Source: Liolophura sinensis
Taxonomy: Eukaryota > Mollusca > Polyplacophora > Chitonida > Chitonidae
Assembly: GCF_032854445.1 (NCBI RefSeq)
Contig: NC_088302.1
Location: 21,029,788-21,093,787 of the forward strand
Length of the DNA stretch: 64,000 nucleotides
Direction: 5' to 3'
Shown in pieces: positions 1,438 through 43,353 of this stretch (position 1 is the first letter of the stretch; the number at the start of each line of letters is the position of its first letter). The notes beneath the pieces were generated by a model. That model was not told the DNA's origin and did no database searches. It was given only the letters and a program-made list of their open reading frames with translations. The position numbers and the translations under genes are program-made.

Positions 1438-5437
<4,000 letters not shown>

Positions 5438-8255: not shown

Positions 8256-8502
8256 ACATTCCCCTTTCTATACCATGGGGCTAAGAGCAGCGACGTGCAT
8301 GATTACCTCTTTATTTTCAGTATGGTGATGAATATACATCAATTATAAAGCCCTTTAAAATGTAAAATTTAAGACAGTACTTGACCGGATATGCATATGT
8401 ATCGATGAAGTATCCCACATAGAGTTTAAAAAGCATACCTTTTAATGTTAGTGATGTTGCAAAACCGAAATATCACATATCATGGTAGGCATACTTTTGA
8501 TG

Positions 8503-8632
8503 TATTTATTTATTTATTTGATTGGTGTTTTACGCCGTACTCAAGAATATTTCACTTATACGACGGCGGCCAGCATTATGGTGGGAGGAAACCGGGCAGA
8601 GCCCGGTGGAAACCCACGACCATCCGCAGGTA
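8503..8632 (-). mobile_element. SINE family 1, 3' half
   Basis: (TTTA)n tail, GGTGTTTTACGCCGTACTC and GGAAACCGGGCAGAGCCCG, truncated after CATCCGCAGG. Confidence 0.92.
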
Positions 8633-10134: not shown

Positions 10135-12685
<2,551 letters not shown>

Positions 12686-16142: not shown

Positions 16143-19100
16143 TCAGTAAGCTTTCTTGTCATCACCATCATCGTTTTCATTGGCACCGTCTTCGTCTTCG
16201 CAAACTTTATCTTCATCATCATCAATACCACCACAGCACTGCAAATCGCTTTAAAATCTTTTTTTAATTGGCCTTATCCAAAGTAGAGTTCGAGAACATG
16301 GAATCTAGCGAAAAACCGACCGTCCAGATTGCTTCTTAAGTTCACTCCAGATTAATGCAGATTGTCATACACGCCTCCCAAATGACATGCAGAAAACTTT
16401 CCAATCAGTTTGTTCGGCGATCAATAAAACTTCGCATGGACTTCCTCTTCTCGTTATACTCTCCTCCGAAAAGACGACGTGCTTTCTCCTGTAATAATTT
16501 GAGAAATTATGAATTAGTCTTCATAATTCACAACTCCGAAGGACTGTTACTCCTGTTCTAACGATAGATCTTCGTCATAGCCCAATGTTACGTAAGAAAT
16601 AAGAGTTTTTAAAGGAAATCTTACACCTAGTTTTCATTGATAACAATGTTGCTGAGGGTAATCGCTGGTTGAGACTATCACCCCAATTGTCTAACCCGTG
16701 ACCAATGATATCGAATGTTCGAATCAAGCTCTTGGTGTTTCGGCTACAGTTTTAAGTCAGTAGGTTTGTAAGATACCTGGCCACGGTTTCTTACCTCGGA
16801 CACTTCGGTTCCCTAAATTCATACACCTAGTTGAGCGCAATCATATAAGTGAAATGTTTTTGAGCAAAGGCGTTAAAAAGTAATAAAATACGTAAGTAAA
16901 TCTGCCATTCCAATAAAGACTACATTGTACACTTACATGTTAATTTATTTGACTGGTGCTTTACGCCGTACTCAAGAATATTTCAGTTGTACATTTTACA
17001 GCAATTATTGCGAGGAAATTTTTCTGTTTGTACTTTAATTACTTATTTCATGGTGGTTGTACGCCACACTGAAGATTATTTTTCTTATATGTCAGCTGTT
17101 CATATTTATGGGCGGATGGAACTCGACACGAGCGCAGGAGAAACCATCGTATCTACGTATGTGCTAGAAACGTTTCCTGACATAAAAATCTCAACTGTAT
17201 TAGTGAAAGGTAGATTTGAACCTGCGAGCTCGAGGTCATCAAGAGCTATGGTGGACGTCCGGAGGAGCTATTTTTCTGCTCGGCAATAATATTTATTATA
17301 ATATATAATATTATTATATATTTATTTACCCTGTAAGCGCTGTCTTTTTGATTCATCGTTCTTCTTCGTCTTAAAGCCTGTAAAAAGAAATAGATTTAAA
17401 CATTAGAACTTCGTTGAAAACAACAAGGTAAAGTCATAGTATTTTTGCATTTGTTCACTTGGCATTTTCGCTCTATAACCCAGATATCGTTATTTTCAAA
17501 AAATGAAGCTATTGACATTTGAATTTATAAAGTTTGGAGAAACTGGCTGCAGACCCATTTAGACAAAATTTAGTAATAATAATAATGTAAAACAATAAAC
17601 TATACAGTAAAAGTTATTGCCCAGAAAAGAATTATTTAACAAAGAGTAGAAATACAGCGAGGATTATGGTAACACATCAGTGCAGTATAATTCACAGCCA
17701 AGACCACATGGCCCTTATTAATCAACCGCATTAAGGCTTACGTCAAAAATTCAAATAGAGCTACAATTAAAACGTTTTTCTCTAGGAACTATAAAACCTG
17801 TACACTGATCCTTTACTGCAGATTAAAGTCCCAACTACAGTTTGAGTTATTTGCCGGTTTCAGTTTGGATTTCTAAGCATGTGCATCTTAAGCGTTAAGC
17901 CGCATAGTAAATTAGAGCCCAGTTTTTCAACAGATCTGTGAGGTTAAGCGACAAAAGAAACTCATTGGTTAAGCTTATAAACTACATGTTACGGAATCTA
18001 CGTAAAATATATCACTTTTCCTCTTGACCATATACATAATTTGGAAACATTTCGTTGACATTTCACCATATACGCGTGCGTACAAAAGCATCAAACTTAC
18101 TTGAAAATAAACATTGATCACGAAGGAAATTTGGCAGACGGAATAGCAGGCAATTAAGACGATGAAAGCTATAAAATCCATTTTCTCGGCAAGTTGAACA
18201 TCAGTGGTAGCGAAACTGATGACGGCGTGCCAAATACAGACTACATACAACAGGACCATAGACAGCAACACGTACACATCCTGTATAACAGAGAACACCG
18301 ATAATTATATAGACTAAAGCAGTGTATGCCTCCTGGTGACGTCATCATTGCTTTACTTGCAAACGCAACATGCACTTTTGGGGATTGGCAATTCAAGTTG
18401 AAAGTATTAAGCCGATCGCATTAACGCTTGTGGGGAAAAACGAAGGACATACACACAATCACCCACGTGCACGCAGAGATTTCTCTTATAGTTAGATGAA
18501 CAGGACGCAGATACGTGTTTGATAGGCGGATAGAAACGCTTACAGAACCTGAAGGAGTCTTAGAAATGAGAAATTTCTTTAAGTACAGACGAAATACAGA
18601 TCTATGTATGTATGTGACGATCATTTGTATCCTGATGATATGAATAAACTGAGGTCAGCGAAACATGGATTAATCAGGATTCAGTTTCTAAGAGAGCACG
18701 GAACTCAGTTTTACAAAGCACTTATTTTTGGAAATTATTACCAGTTAATGTTGTCCTTGGTTGAGGATGAGCTTACCATAGATATGATATCCTGGGTTGA
18801 GGATGAGCTTACCAGAGATATGATATCTTGGGTTGAGAATGAGCTTACCAGAGATATGATATCCTGGGTTGAGGATGAGCTTACCAGAGATATAATATCC
18901 TGGGCTGAAGATGAGCTTACCAGAGATATGATACCCTGGGTTGAGGATGAGCTTACCAGAGATATAATATCCTGGGTTGAAGATGAGCTTACCAGAGATA
19001 TGATACCCTGGGTTCAGGATGAGCTTACCAGAGATATGATACCCTGGGTTCAGGATGAGCTTACCAGAGATATGATATCCTGGGTTGAGGATGAGCTCAC

Positions 19101-22100
19101 AAGAGATATGATATCCTGGGTTGAAGATGAGCTTACAAGAGATATGATATCCTGGGTTGAGGATGAGCTTACCAGAGATATGATACCCTGGGTTGAAGAT
19201 GAGCTTACAAGAGATATGATATCCTGGGTTGAGGATGAGCTTACCAGAGATATGATATCCTGGGTTGGAGATGAGCTTACCAGAGATATGATATCCTGGG
19301 TTGAAGATGATCTTACAAGAGATATGATACCCTGAGTTGAGGATGAGCTTACCAGAGATATGATATCCTGGGTTGAAGATGAGCTTACCAGAGATATGAT
19401 ATCCTGGGTTGAAGATGAGCTTACCAGAGATATGATACCCTGGGTTGAGGATGAGCTTACCAGAGATATGATATCCTGGGTTGAAGATGAGGTTACCAGA
19501 GATATGATATCCTGGGTTGAAGATGAGGTTACCAGAGATATGATACCCTGGGTTGAGGATGAGCTTACCAGAGATATGATATCCTGGGTTGAGGATGAGG
19601 TTACCAGAGATATAATATCCTGGGTTGAGGATGAGCTTACAAGAGATATGATATCCTGGGTTGAGGATGAGCTTACCAGAGATATGATATCCTGGGATGA
19701 GGATGAGCTTACCAGAGATATGATATCCTGGGTTGAGGATGAGCTTACCAGAGATATGATATCCTGGGTTGAGGATGAACTTGCCAGGGATATGATATCC
19801 TGAGTTGAGCATGAAGTTATCATTCCGTTAAGTGAGATATCATATCTTTGGCTAACGACGAGTTTACCTGATAAATGATATATATTATCTTTGGTTCGGA
19901 GTAAACTTACCAGATACGTGAGATACGATATTTTTGGTAGACTTTGACTGAGGACGAACTTGAAAGCCACAGCGGTTAGGACGAGCGTAAAGGACAACTG
20001 AAGGCGGTTCTGGGGCTTGTCCCGACTCACGGCGAATGTACAAAACGACAGGGTGCATATTAAAGCCTGTGGGGACAACAGAAACAAGCAGTCCTGTCTT
20101 GAACGTGTTAAAACGGGAACACCATTCGATATAATTTGCTAATAACACTAATCGGAAATTACTGCAGTGCCCTAGACTGATATATAACAATATCAACGAC
20201 CACATGTTTGAACGAACGCTGAATATCCTACATCATTCTACGTCACAAGGGAGGTAACTTCGCCATTTCTAAATCTAAACATTCGTTCCATTCACCTTTT
20301 CATAGTTCACATAGTGAGTCCCATCTAATTAGGTTACAGGAAAAGCTTACATATTATTCAAAGCCACTGTATTTGGAGAGGCTCCTCGGTCGGCATAATT
20401 CATCAAGTGTATATCACAGGCTGACAAAGAAGAAAACACTTAAAAGCTTGCATCTTCATTAATTCGAATCTTAAAGATTTGCAAATCAAAATGCTTTCTC
20501 ACCTTAAACGCCATCAATCCAAGACATGCTTAGTATGCATTCAACCGAAGGAATGGCAAAAAGTGGGATACTTGGTCACTGATATTGTAAACGTGAGACT
20601 TTATATTAACAGGTACCTCATTTATACATGTACGTGTAATTCATTCCTTTGTTTCCGAAAATTTTATATTGCAAGCAATCAGCCATATTCTAGGTGTAGA
20701 ATCAAACATTTGTATACCAGCCATCGACCATAATGGATGTTAACATGTCGATAACCGCAAGACCAATTTCCAAAACAATGTTAAACAAAAAGAAGTAAGA
20801 CAGAATGTAACATGTCACGACTAGCATTCTTATCTAATTAGGAATGACGGCAGTTTTATTATAAATTATATTTAGTAGAAAAAAATACTTCATTTACTCT
20901 ACGTTTCGTGTCTTGTAGCAGTTCCATGGCAAAGACCGACCTACACTGTTAGTGTTAAGTCAAAATATGTTCTAATGGATATGTTTCGCCAGTCACTTTT
21001 CCACACGGATGTCTTTCCTTGACTTTCTTACCGTAATTAGGAGAATATTCCACATGAAGAAGCCTGGTTTTCGCGAAGCGCGACACTGAAGGAGAATGCC
21101 TGAGTGTTTGTATCTGGAATTGACGAACTCTTTGCTCGTTGGCTGCTGGAAGGACTCGATGTGTTCGTAAAGTTTCCATTCCTGAGCATCAATAAAGCTC
21201 TGAGCGTTCACGATGCTCATTTCTTTATCTTCTTCTACAAGATCTACTTCTGCTTCCGGTAACTCAGAAATCACAAACACGGACAGATCCTGGAATGCAA
21301 AGGCACATAGCTATAACTATTGTCTCTCAGGGAGTTCGAAATCAGCTCATGTCAGTGTGTCATCCACTTTACCACATGGAGGAATTTGTAGTTAGCCGAC
21401 AAGACCACACCAGTACAGGTAGAATCTCTATCTTCCATCAACAGTACCAGCTGCTGGTGTAAAATAACTCACAGAAATGTAACAAGCATACAATCTTTGG
21501 TGTATTTATACTTGGTGCAACATTCTTTACAAGAAAAGACACACAATACAGACCTAATTATCTTGAAAGAGGGGTAGAAACAGTTCTAAACGGCCACTGC
21601 CATGCTTTTCTAATCGGCTTTGTATCTCTATAAATCCAGTTTAATCTGGGATTCCCACGAGGCCATGTGATACCACATGTCAGAGAAACCGGAAACACGT
21701 CATTCTTACCATACGCTTATACAGTAAAAGGTAAAATAAGCAAATGGTATACTGTTTCCAAAAAGTTTATAATTGCGCGTGCTCAGCCACTGAAATTAAT
21801 TCACAGTTCTGAACCATTCTGAAACATTCTGCTTCGTGATCAGGACTTTGATGTGTAGCCAACAGCCACTTGTAATTCTCTAACCTGCGTATCAAAAGGA
21901 AACTGTTTTAACTCCAGGTTTTCTGCAAATGTCCCCGCCAAGCGGCGCTTCTCCAACACGTAGGCGTGGCCGCTTTCATCGGTCTTAATTTCCCGCCAGG
22001 TGGAGATCTTGGGTTCTCCCAGTGCGTTTTGAACGTGGATGCGAGGCGTCCAGATGTTGGACCAGTCAACTTTATCGCTATCCTAAGGAATGGTAAAAGA

Positions 22101-33676: not shown

Positions 33677-43353
<9,677 letters not shown>

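Follow-up and report, generated by a model that had tools for sequence, protein, structure and literature searches.

What follows for a gene when one of its introns opens on a long row of copies of the gene's own splice donor? The question is raised by a pentameric ligand-gated channel gene of Liolophura sinensis, encoded on the minus strand of a 64-kb stretch of the 609-Mb assembly (contig C8, 21029788-21093787; hereafter the window), in which a 36-bp minisatellite of 29 full units starts just past the 5' splice site between segments M2 and M3. A preliminary description of this DNA had proposed that the array was built from the exon-intron junction and that it could buffer, compete with or regulate splicing. 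Sequence comparisons indicate that the units do descend from that junction, and a tolerated by-product of slippage is the most likely reading of the array.

Three exons of the channel gene were read (Table 1), with the M1-M2 exon ending in CACGTATCTG at 19911 and the intron starting with GTAAGTTTAC at 19910. The M1-M2 exon alone scored 23.2 bits against PF02932 (Neur_chan_memb), under the curated cut-off of 28.1, and a Pfam scan of the M3-M4 exon alone (18101-18280) gave no match; joined, the three exons reached 29.2 bits, over the cut-off. ELIC and GABA-A gamma-2 were the best solved-structure matches of the joined protein, and the join from 19911 to 18280 is supported because the alignment with ELIC (LPRLPYTTYIDQM) runs gap-free through LPKISYLTYL/DVYV (slash, exon or splice boundary). 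On this sequence evidence, the host gene is a pentameric ligand-gated ion channel, and the array-bearing intron is a phase 0 intron of 1630 nt. The earlier placement of a donor after 19911, with the array just downstream and between M2 and M3, was thus borne out. M3 and an apparent M4 share a single 60-residue exon with a very short linker, and the best structure match is the bacterial ELIC; typical animal Cys-loop receptors, unlike this channel, have a long M3-M4 loop. A search of a viral collection found no confirmed relative of the channel.

Tandem Repeats Finder (TRF) placed the repeat at 18754-19814, with a period of 36, 29.5 copies and 93% matches. Read along the intron, the register is 43, 43, 47 and then 36 nt, beginning with a founder unit (u0) whose exonic 27 nt are CCAAAAATATCGTATCTCACGTATCTG and passing through two copies, u1 and u2, into the regular units. 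The array adjoins the authentic boundary directly, and its most diverged units are those nearest the junction, the edge units being diverged and the interior homogenised. The bridge between donor and regular array had been described as diverged half-units; it consists of two diverged copies that, at 43 and 47 nt, are longer than the 36-bp unit. The donor of the 29 full units reads GGTAAG in 20, TGTAAG in four, GGTAAC in three and GGCAAG and TGTGAG in one each, and GTAAGC is kept in 23, in agreement with the earlier count of about 29 units, most with GTAAGC. Each unit is laid out as CCCAG/GATATCATATCTCTG/GTAAGCTCATCCTCAA, the right-hand donor being inherited from the real donor. The left-hand CCCAG/G resembles an acceptor and seems to have changed from exonic CCAAAAA via the CCAAAG of u1 and u2, and each unit resembles a 15-nt microexon between splice-site-like signals. 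When the 25-base unit core was searched in the whole genome with up to two mismatches (repeat counts from this search being lower bounds), at least 28 matches were found, all inside the array, and a dispersed satellite is disfavoured on this ground. A stretch of 291 nt spanning the junction folds better than all 200 shuffles (z -4.0); because it contains several copies and inverted repeats, no function is drawn from this fold.

The likeness between unit and junction extends beyond the splice consensus. With positions -3 to +6 masked, 16 of 27 flanking positions agree between the true donor and the unit, and 18 of 27 between the first bridge donor (u1) and the unit, compared with a mean of 7.05 and a maximum of 14 among 467 other GTAAG, GTAAA or GTGAG sites in the window, and a chance likeness from shared consensus is rejected on these figures. 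The preliminary description had suggested a comparison with shuffled sequence; the tripled unit, aligned to 40 nt of exon and 30 nt of intron, scored 28, above all 1000 dinucleotide shuffles and unmatched in 9618 other stretches. Ungapped, u0 and u1 agree at 25 of 43 positions, as good as which there was nothing among 124,914 window 43-mers (best other, 24). Of an exon 23-mer, 19 positions agree with the beginning of u2 (0/124,954 window 23-mers as good), and of an exon 27-mer, 19 agree with u1 (1/124,946). Shuffles did as well in 4/2000 cases for the whole bridge against the exon, in 5/2000 for u1 against the junction, in 80/2000 for u2 against the junction and in 322/2000 for u1 against u2; for the junction against the following 875 nt they did so in 1/500 when the target was shuffled and 0/500 when the junction was.

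Several narrower comparisons are weak and count against descent. The exon side alone was equalled by 33/1000 shuffles and 50/9626 stretches, the intron side alone by 11/1000 and 193/9630, u2 against the exon by 60/2000 shuffles, u1 against the exon by 277/2000 and the junction against the following 600 nt by 2/300. Because either side alone is weaker, the case for homology rests on the tests in combination; the donor-masked, shuffle and 43-mer comparisons together bear out a derivation of the array from the exon-intron junction itself.

A genome search revealed four close paralogs, on contigs C11, C4 and C6 (two), all with an intron at the same position after ISYLTY(L/M). The C11 paralog also carries a junction-derived minisatellite, of 88 bp × 21.2, about 235 nt past its donor in an intron of 3166 nt. 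Its unit aligns with its own junction over 58 nt at a score of 61 (0/1000 shuffles; at most 40 in the 766 other locus stretches tested), and in the first copy 22 of the 25 exon nt persist, while its donor 11-mer, 75 nt downstream, is identical to the authentic one. The C4 and two C6 paralogs have no array adjoining the donor. Elsewhere in the paralog introns there is a 41-bp × 1.9 repeat (C4) and a 28-bp × 3.4 repeat (one of the C6 genes, C6b); the junction test covered most of the latter and not the former. The same intron of the C4 gene (locus L027) holds a weak exon-like copy (6/500 shuffles), counted here as no array, and a direct duplication read by eye, which may be decayed traces of such a process.

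For comparison, other channel exon ends were taken from the 30 best of 106 channel-family matches, of which 26 were testable and four were dropped for want of a donor candidate. None of the 26 has a junction copy beyond all shuffles (smallest values, 4/100 and 5/100). Intronic minisatellites as such are common, with one lying within 400 nt of 8 of the 30 exon ends; those at L046, L049, L052 and L054 are of 48 bp × 12.8, 56 bp × 21, 40 bp × 18 and 39 bp × 9. Junction arrays occur in two of five paralogs and none of 26 other channel exon ends (Fisher p 0.02), a post hoc comparison in which one of the two arrays is the starting case, the 26 exon ends are approximate and 100 shuffles are set against 500.

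The explanation that we favour, at a probability of about 0.72, is a junction-derived minisatellite of the type called mirages in amphioxus, most likely a tolerated by-product of slippage and not a device. It would have begun with a tandem duplication of the last 27 exon nt and the first 16 intron nt, so that the intron gained an extra donor. A shortened, 36-bp form may then have multiplied by unequal exchange or slippage, which kept the interior units alike while those at the edge diverged; the authentic donor would still do most of the splicing while decoys leaked at a low level at most. In predicted pairing with U1 (duplex energies with the U1 5' end), the authentic donor reaches -9.1 kcal/mol, the u1 donor -8.3 and 20 of the 29 units -8.0, the other nine lying between -4.3 and -5.0; none of the 29 decoys equals the true donor, though the majority fall just a little short, and most units do keep a donor-like sequence, as had been claimed for them. 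Because the authentic donor pairs slightly better than the 29 decoys, and mirages are reported to leave normal transcripts, we infer that it is mostly chosen. Conservation is no higher at the donor positions than elsewhere in the unit, with variants in 10 of 174 cells compared with 33 of 870 (Fisher p 0.29, from one array), and the exon frame read on into the array meets a TGA at 19050..19052 (-) and a second at 19014-19016. Since the donors are not specially conserved and the frame ends at these codons, the array is read as a by-product of slippage.

Other observations pull away from this reading. The true donor is predicted to be less accessible than 26 of the 29 decoys (28 of 29 over a longer span), and a single accident would not lead one to expect arrays in two paralogs. 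In C11, the first decoy has the authentic 11-mer, and two of the 22 listed donor-like copies, at -7.9 and -8.3 against -6.7 kcal/mol for the real donor, pair better with U1, while one pairs equally and 19 more poorly. U1 strength therefore does not explain a correct choice in C11, and because of the two better decoys our confidence was lowered from 0.75, the decoy and inheritance readings gaining a little in turn.

A variant compatible with the by-product explanation, and somewhat unlikely in our estimate, is that the array was inherited, the first duplication predating the split of C8 and C11 and each lineage re-expanding its own unit. The two genes share the intron and the register, exon end plus donor, and between the exon-like stretch of the C8 unit and the C11 exon 17 of 19 nt agree (score 28, 2/1000 shuffles), a fit close to that of the unit with its own junction (31, 0/1000). 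In the M3-M4 exon, C8 is also closer to C11 (37%) than to C4 (26%). However, C8 and C11 are only about half identical in the M1-M2 exon (26 of 52 residues), their units are of 36 and 88 bp, and C4, the closest in this exon (37/52), shows no clear array; the branching order of C8, C4 and C11 is ambiguous, no topology being preferred in the approximately unbiased test (p 0.33, 0.46 and 0.62). The low identity and different unit lengths are why we lean towards independent expansion in C8 and C11. A bolder form of independence makes this one splice junction a hot spot for repeated array growth: paralogs would each have grown donor arrays there, perhaps because a near-repeat encoding the conserved motif SYLTYL seeds slippage, with decoys that in one gene keep to the reading frame and might extend the M2-M3 loop. 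The proposed seed lies across the donor as CGTATCTCA CGTATCTGG in C8, but by eye it agrees at only 5 of 9 positions in the C11 gene, and because of this weakness the idea, already doubtful, was marked down slightly.

The main rival to a tolerated by-product is a functional field of decoys, in which array donors compete with or delay the true donor and tune channel expression by repeat number. Beyond the gap of about 1 kcal/mol for 20 of the 29 units and the accessibility predicted for most decoys, the minus strand of the 64-kb window has 78 GT sites that reach -8.0 or better, of which 20 lie in the array, and in the human gene ABCA7 a variable number tandem repeat (VNTR) in intron 18 is described as yielding an isoform that retains one unit and, with increasing length, more skipping of exon 19 (PMC5954066). 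Retention of the unit itself, however, is given there as unchanged with length (PMC5954066), and splicing is reported as undisturbed by the mirages in the Adh, globin and troponin C genes of amphioxus, as reverse transcription PCR suggested (PMC3087553, PMC3902484). The donors of the C8 array, as said, show no excess conservation, and 17 of the 22 listed C11 copies read GTGTGT where the real donor is GTATGT. The buffering, competing or regulatory role proposed earlier is thus not supported; regulation of splicing by the C8 array is possible, but we think a decoy field improbable.

Far less probable still is a coding reservoir, in which array donors or 15-nt microexons would lengthen the M2-M3 linker by repeats read in frame (DIISLVSSSSTQ). 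The 29 donor positions of the array, including one GC, all share the phase of the true donor, use of units 1-21 would insert 42-282 stop-free residues, and each consensus unit offers CCCAG/G, a 15-nt stretch and a donor. Yet units 22-29 reach the TGA at 19052, splicing from the u1 donor would change the frame and meet a stop in the following exon, and reading through in C11 meets a stop at codon 9, ahead of the first decoy. Openness is not peculiar to this frame either, as another minus-strand frame is open over the array for 360 codons and the plus strand for stretches of 250 and 155; an open frame comes cheaply because 36 is a multiple of 3. Of 19 distinct variants in the exon frame, 8 are synonymous against 5.1 expected, with no clear enrichment, and extra residues in the M2-M3 loop would probably disrupt gating. 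A coding tail was likewise rejected, the frame being open through unit 21 but followed by TGA and its openness being nothing special. Finally, that the array is unrelated to the junction, the likeness being shared splice consensus plus chance, is scarcely credible: both have the donor hexamer and each side alone is modest, but the donor-masked matches, the u0-u1 comparison with window 43-mers and the clear junction homology in the C11 paralog all speak against it.

Elsewhere in the window, the 14 flanks of seven other arrays were tested for diverged extra copies, and four beat all 500 shuffles: the right flank of an 84-bp array, both flanks of a 52-bp array (the right one lying partly within a longer TRF row) and the left flank of a 31-bp array. 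The 52-bp minisatellite (36753-37203, 8.7 copies) has diverged copies on both sides and, judging from the sequence, probably lies in an intron of an acid-sphingomyelinase-like gene, an exon of which matches PF19272 at 22.3 bits, just under the cut-off of 23.7. Two tandem beta-tubulin-like genes (3919-5437 and 11181-12685) are 96% identical in two compared 300-nt stretches; the Pfam run covered the first of them. A repeat (GATTGGTGTTTTACGCCGTACTCAAGAATATTTCACTTATACGACGGC) resembling a short interspersed element (SINE) is present in both orientations, at 12 and 8 places with at least 60% identity (families D6 and D7). It is probably a molluscan SINE, though a text search of the open-access literature with four fragments of it gave no match. 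RUDI is named as one such element in a source whose available text does not give the sequence (PMC11121367). A scan of the window for Rfam families at the gathering score and for tRNAs found none.

Table 1. Positions of the channel-gene exons, junction copies and related features (window coordinates unless a contig is named; slash, exon or splice boundary)
Feature	Positions	Strand	Basis
Upstream exon, from the last part of the ligand-binding domain into the start of M1	21032..21289	-	boundaries read from sequence
Coding exon M1-M2 (ALICTLSF...LPKISYLTYL), phase-0 end	19911..20066	-	PF02932 and ELIC alignment
Inferred authentic 5' splice site CTG/GTAAGT	19905..19910	-	sequence and ELIC alignment; U1 duplex -9.1 kcal/mol
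Next exon M3-M4 (DVYVLLSM...), acceptor TTATACAG/GAT	18101..18280	-	ELIC alignment; alone without Pfam match
Founder unit u0, 43 nt (27 nt exon, 16 nt intron)	19895..19937	-	best register
Diverged copy u1, 43 nt, donor CAG/GTAAAC at 19867 (-8.3 kcal/mol)	19852..19894	-	best register and U1 duplex
Diverged 47-nt copy u2, 19/23 identical to exon over its first 23 nt, without GT donor at the aligned place	19805..19851	-	
36-bp array, 29 full units, each 20 nt exon-derived (including CCCAGG) and 16 nt intron-derived	18754..19804	-	
Junction-derived 88-bp × 21 minisatellite of the C11 paralog	C11:29511000-29520999 (L026), 2167-4263		
SINE-like repeat, examples	1979-2051, 8495-8567, 34236-34295, 41944-42003		

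These results add a ligand-gated channel gene, probably one outside the chordates, to the known hosts of junction-spanning minisatellites. With two paralogs that have arrays and three without one adjoining the donor, the family offers a natural test of how the spliceosome chooses among about thirty near-equal donors, and it bears on the proposal, made for the amphioxus repeats, that such sequences seed new introns (PMC3087553). The array had been called unusual, which holds for a single gene but not for the kind, as amphioxus mirages (PMC3087553) and ABCA7 (PMC5954066) were already known. A search of the open-access literature returned no molluscan or channel-gene junction array among the matches listed.

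The closest relatives are the mirages of amphioxus, described in Adh3, the globins BflGb6 and BflGb9 and troponin C, with similar repeats in PGBD5, as minisatellite-like copies of exon-intron boundaries (PMC3087553, PMC3902484). Like the C8 array, these are tandem boundary copies with many AG- or GT-bearing units, and the most diverged units are reported at the cluster boundaries (PMC3087553), the edge units in both cases escaping homogenisation. Unlike these cephalochordate examples, the C8 array, of 29 units, follows a donor of a channel gene, and a paralog has a second array in the same intron. In ABCA7, an Alzheimer risk gene, the first GT of the VNTR is the exon-18 donor and the reference carries 23.7 copies of 25 bp, so that here too an exon's splice donor is repeated downstream (PMC5954066). 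As described (PMC5954066), however, that repeat starts at the donor GT, whereas the C8 founder includes 27 exon nt; the 25-bp unit shifts the frame where the 36-bp unit keeps it, and splicing was measured in ABCA7 while the C8 array is known from sequence. Human internal tandem repeats are reported to alter gene structure through cryptic splice sites and new introns (PMC2812944), and like the C8 array indicate that minisatellite expansion can supply splice sites and change the exon-intron structure of paralogs, although the exon and intron changes described there concern segmental duplications and the C8 array grew from one donor junction. Among marine invertebrates, intron 3 of an abalone TSSK1-like gene also holds a minisatellite, with a 27-bp unit, for which the available text of the report mentions no link to a splice junction (PMC6905558). 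Set beside these systems, the C8 array belongs to a known kind, and its recurrence in two paralogs is the interesting part.

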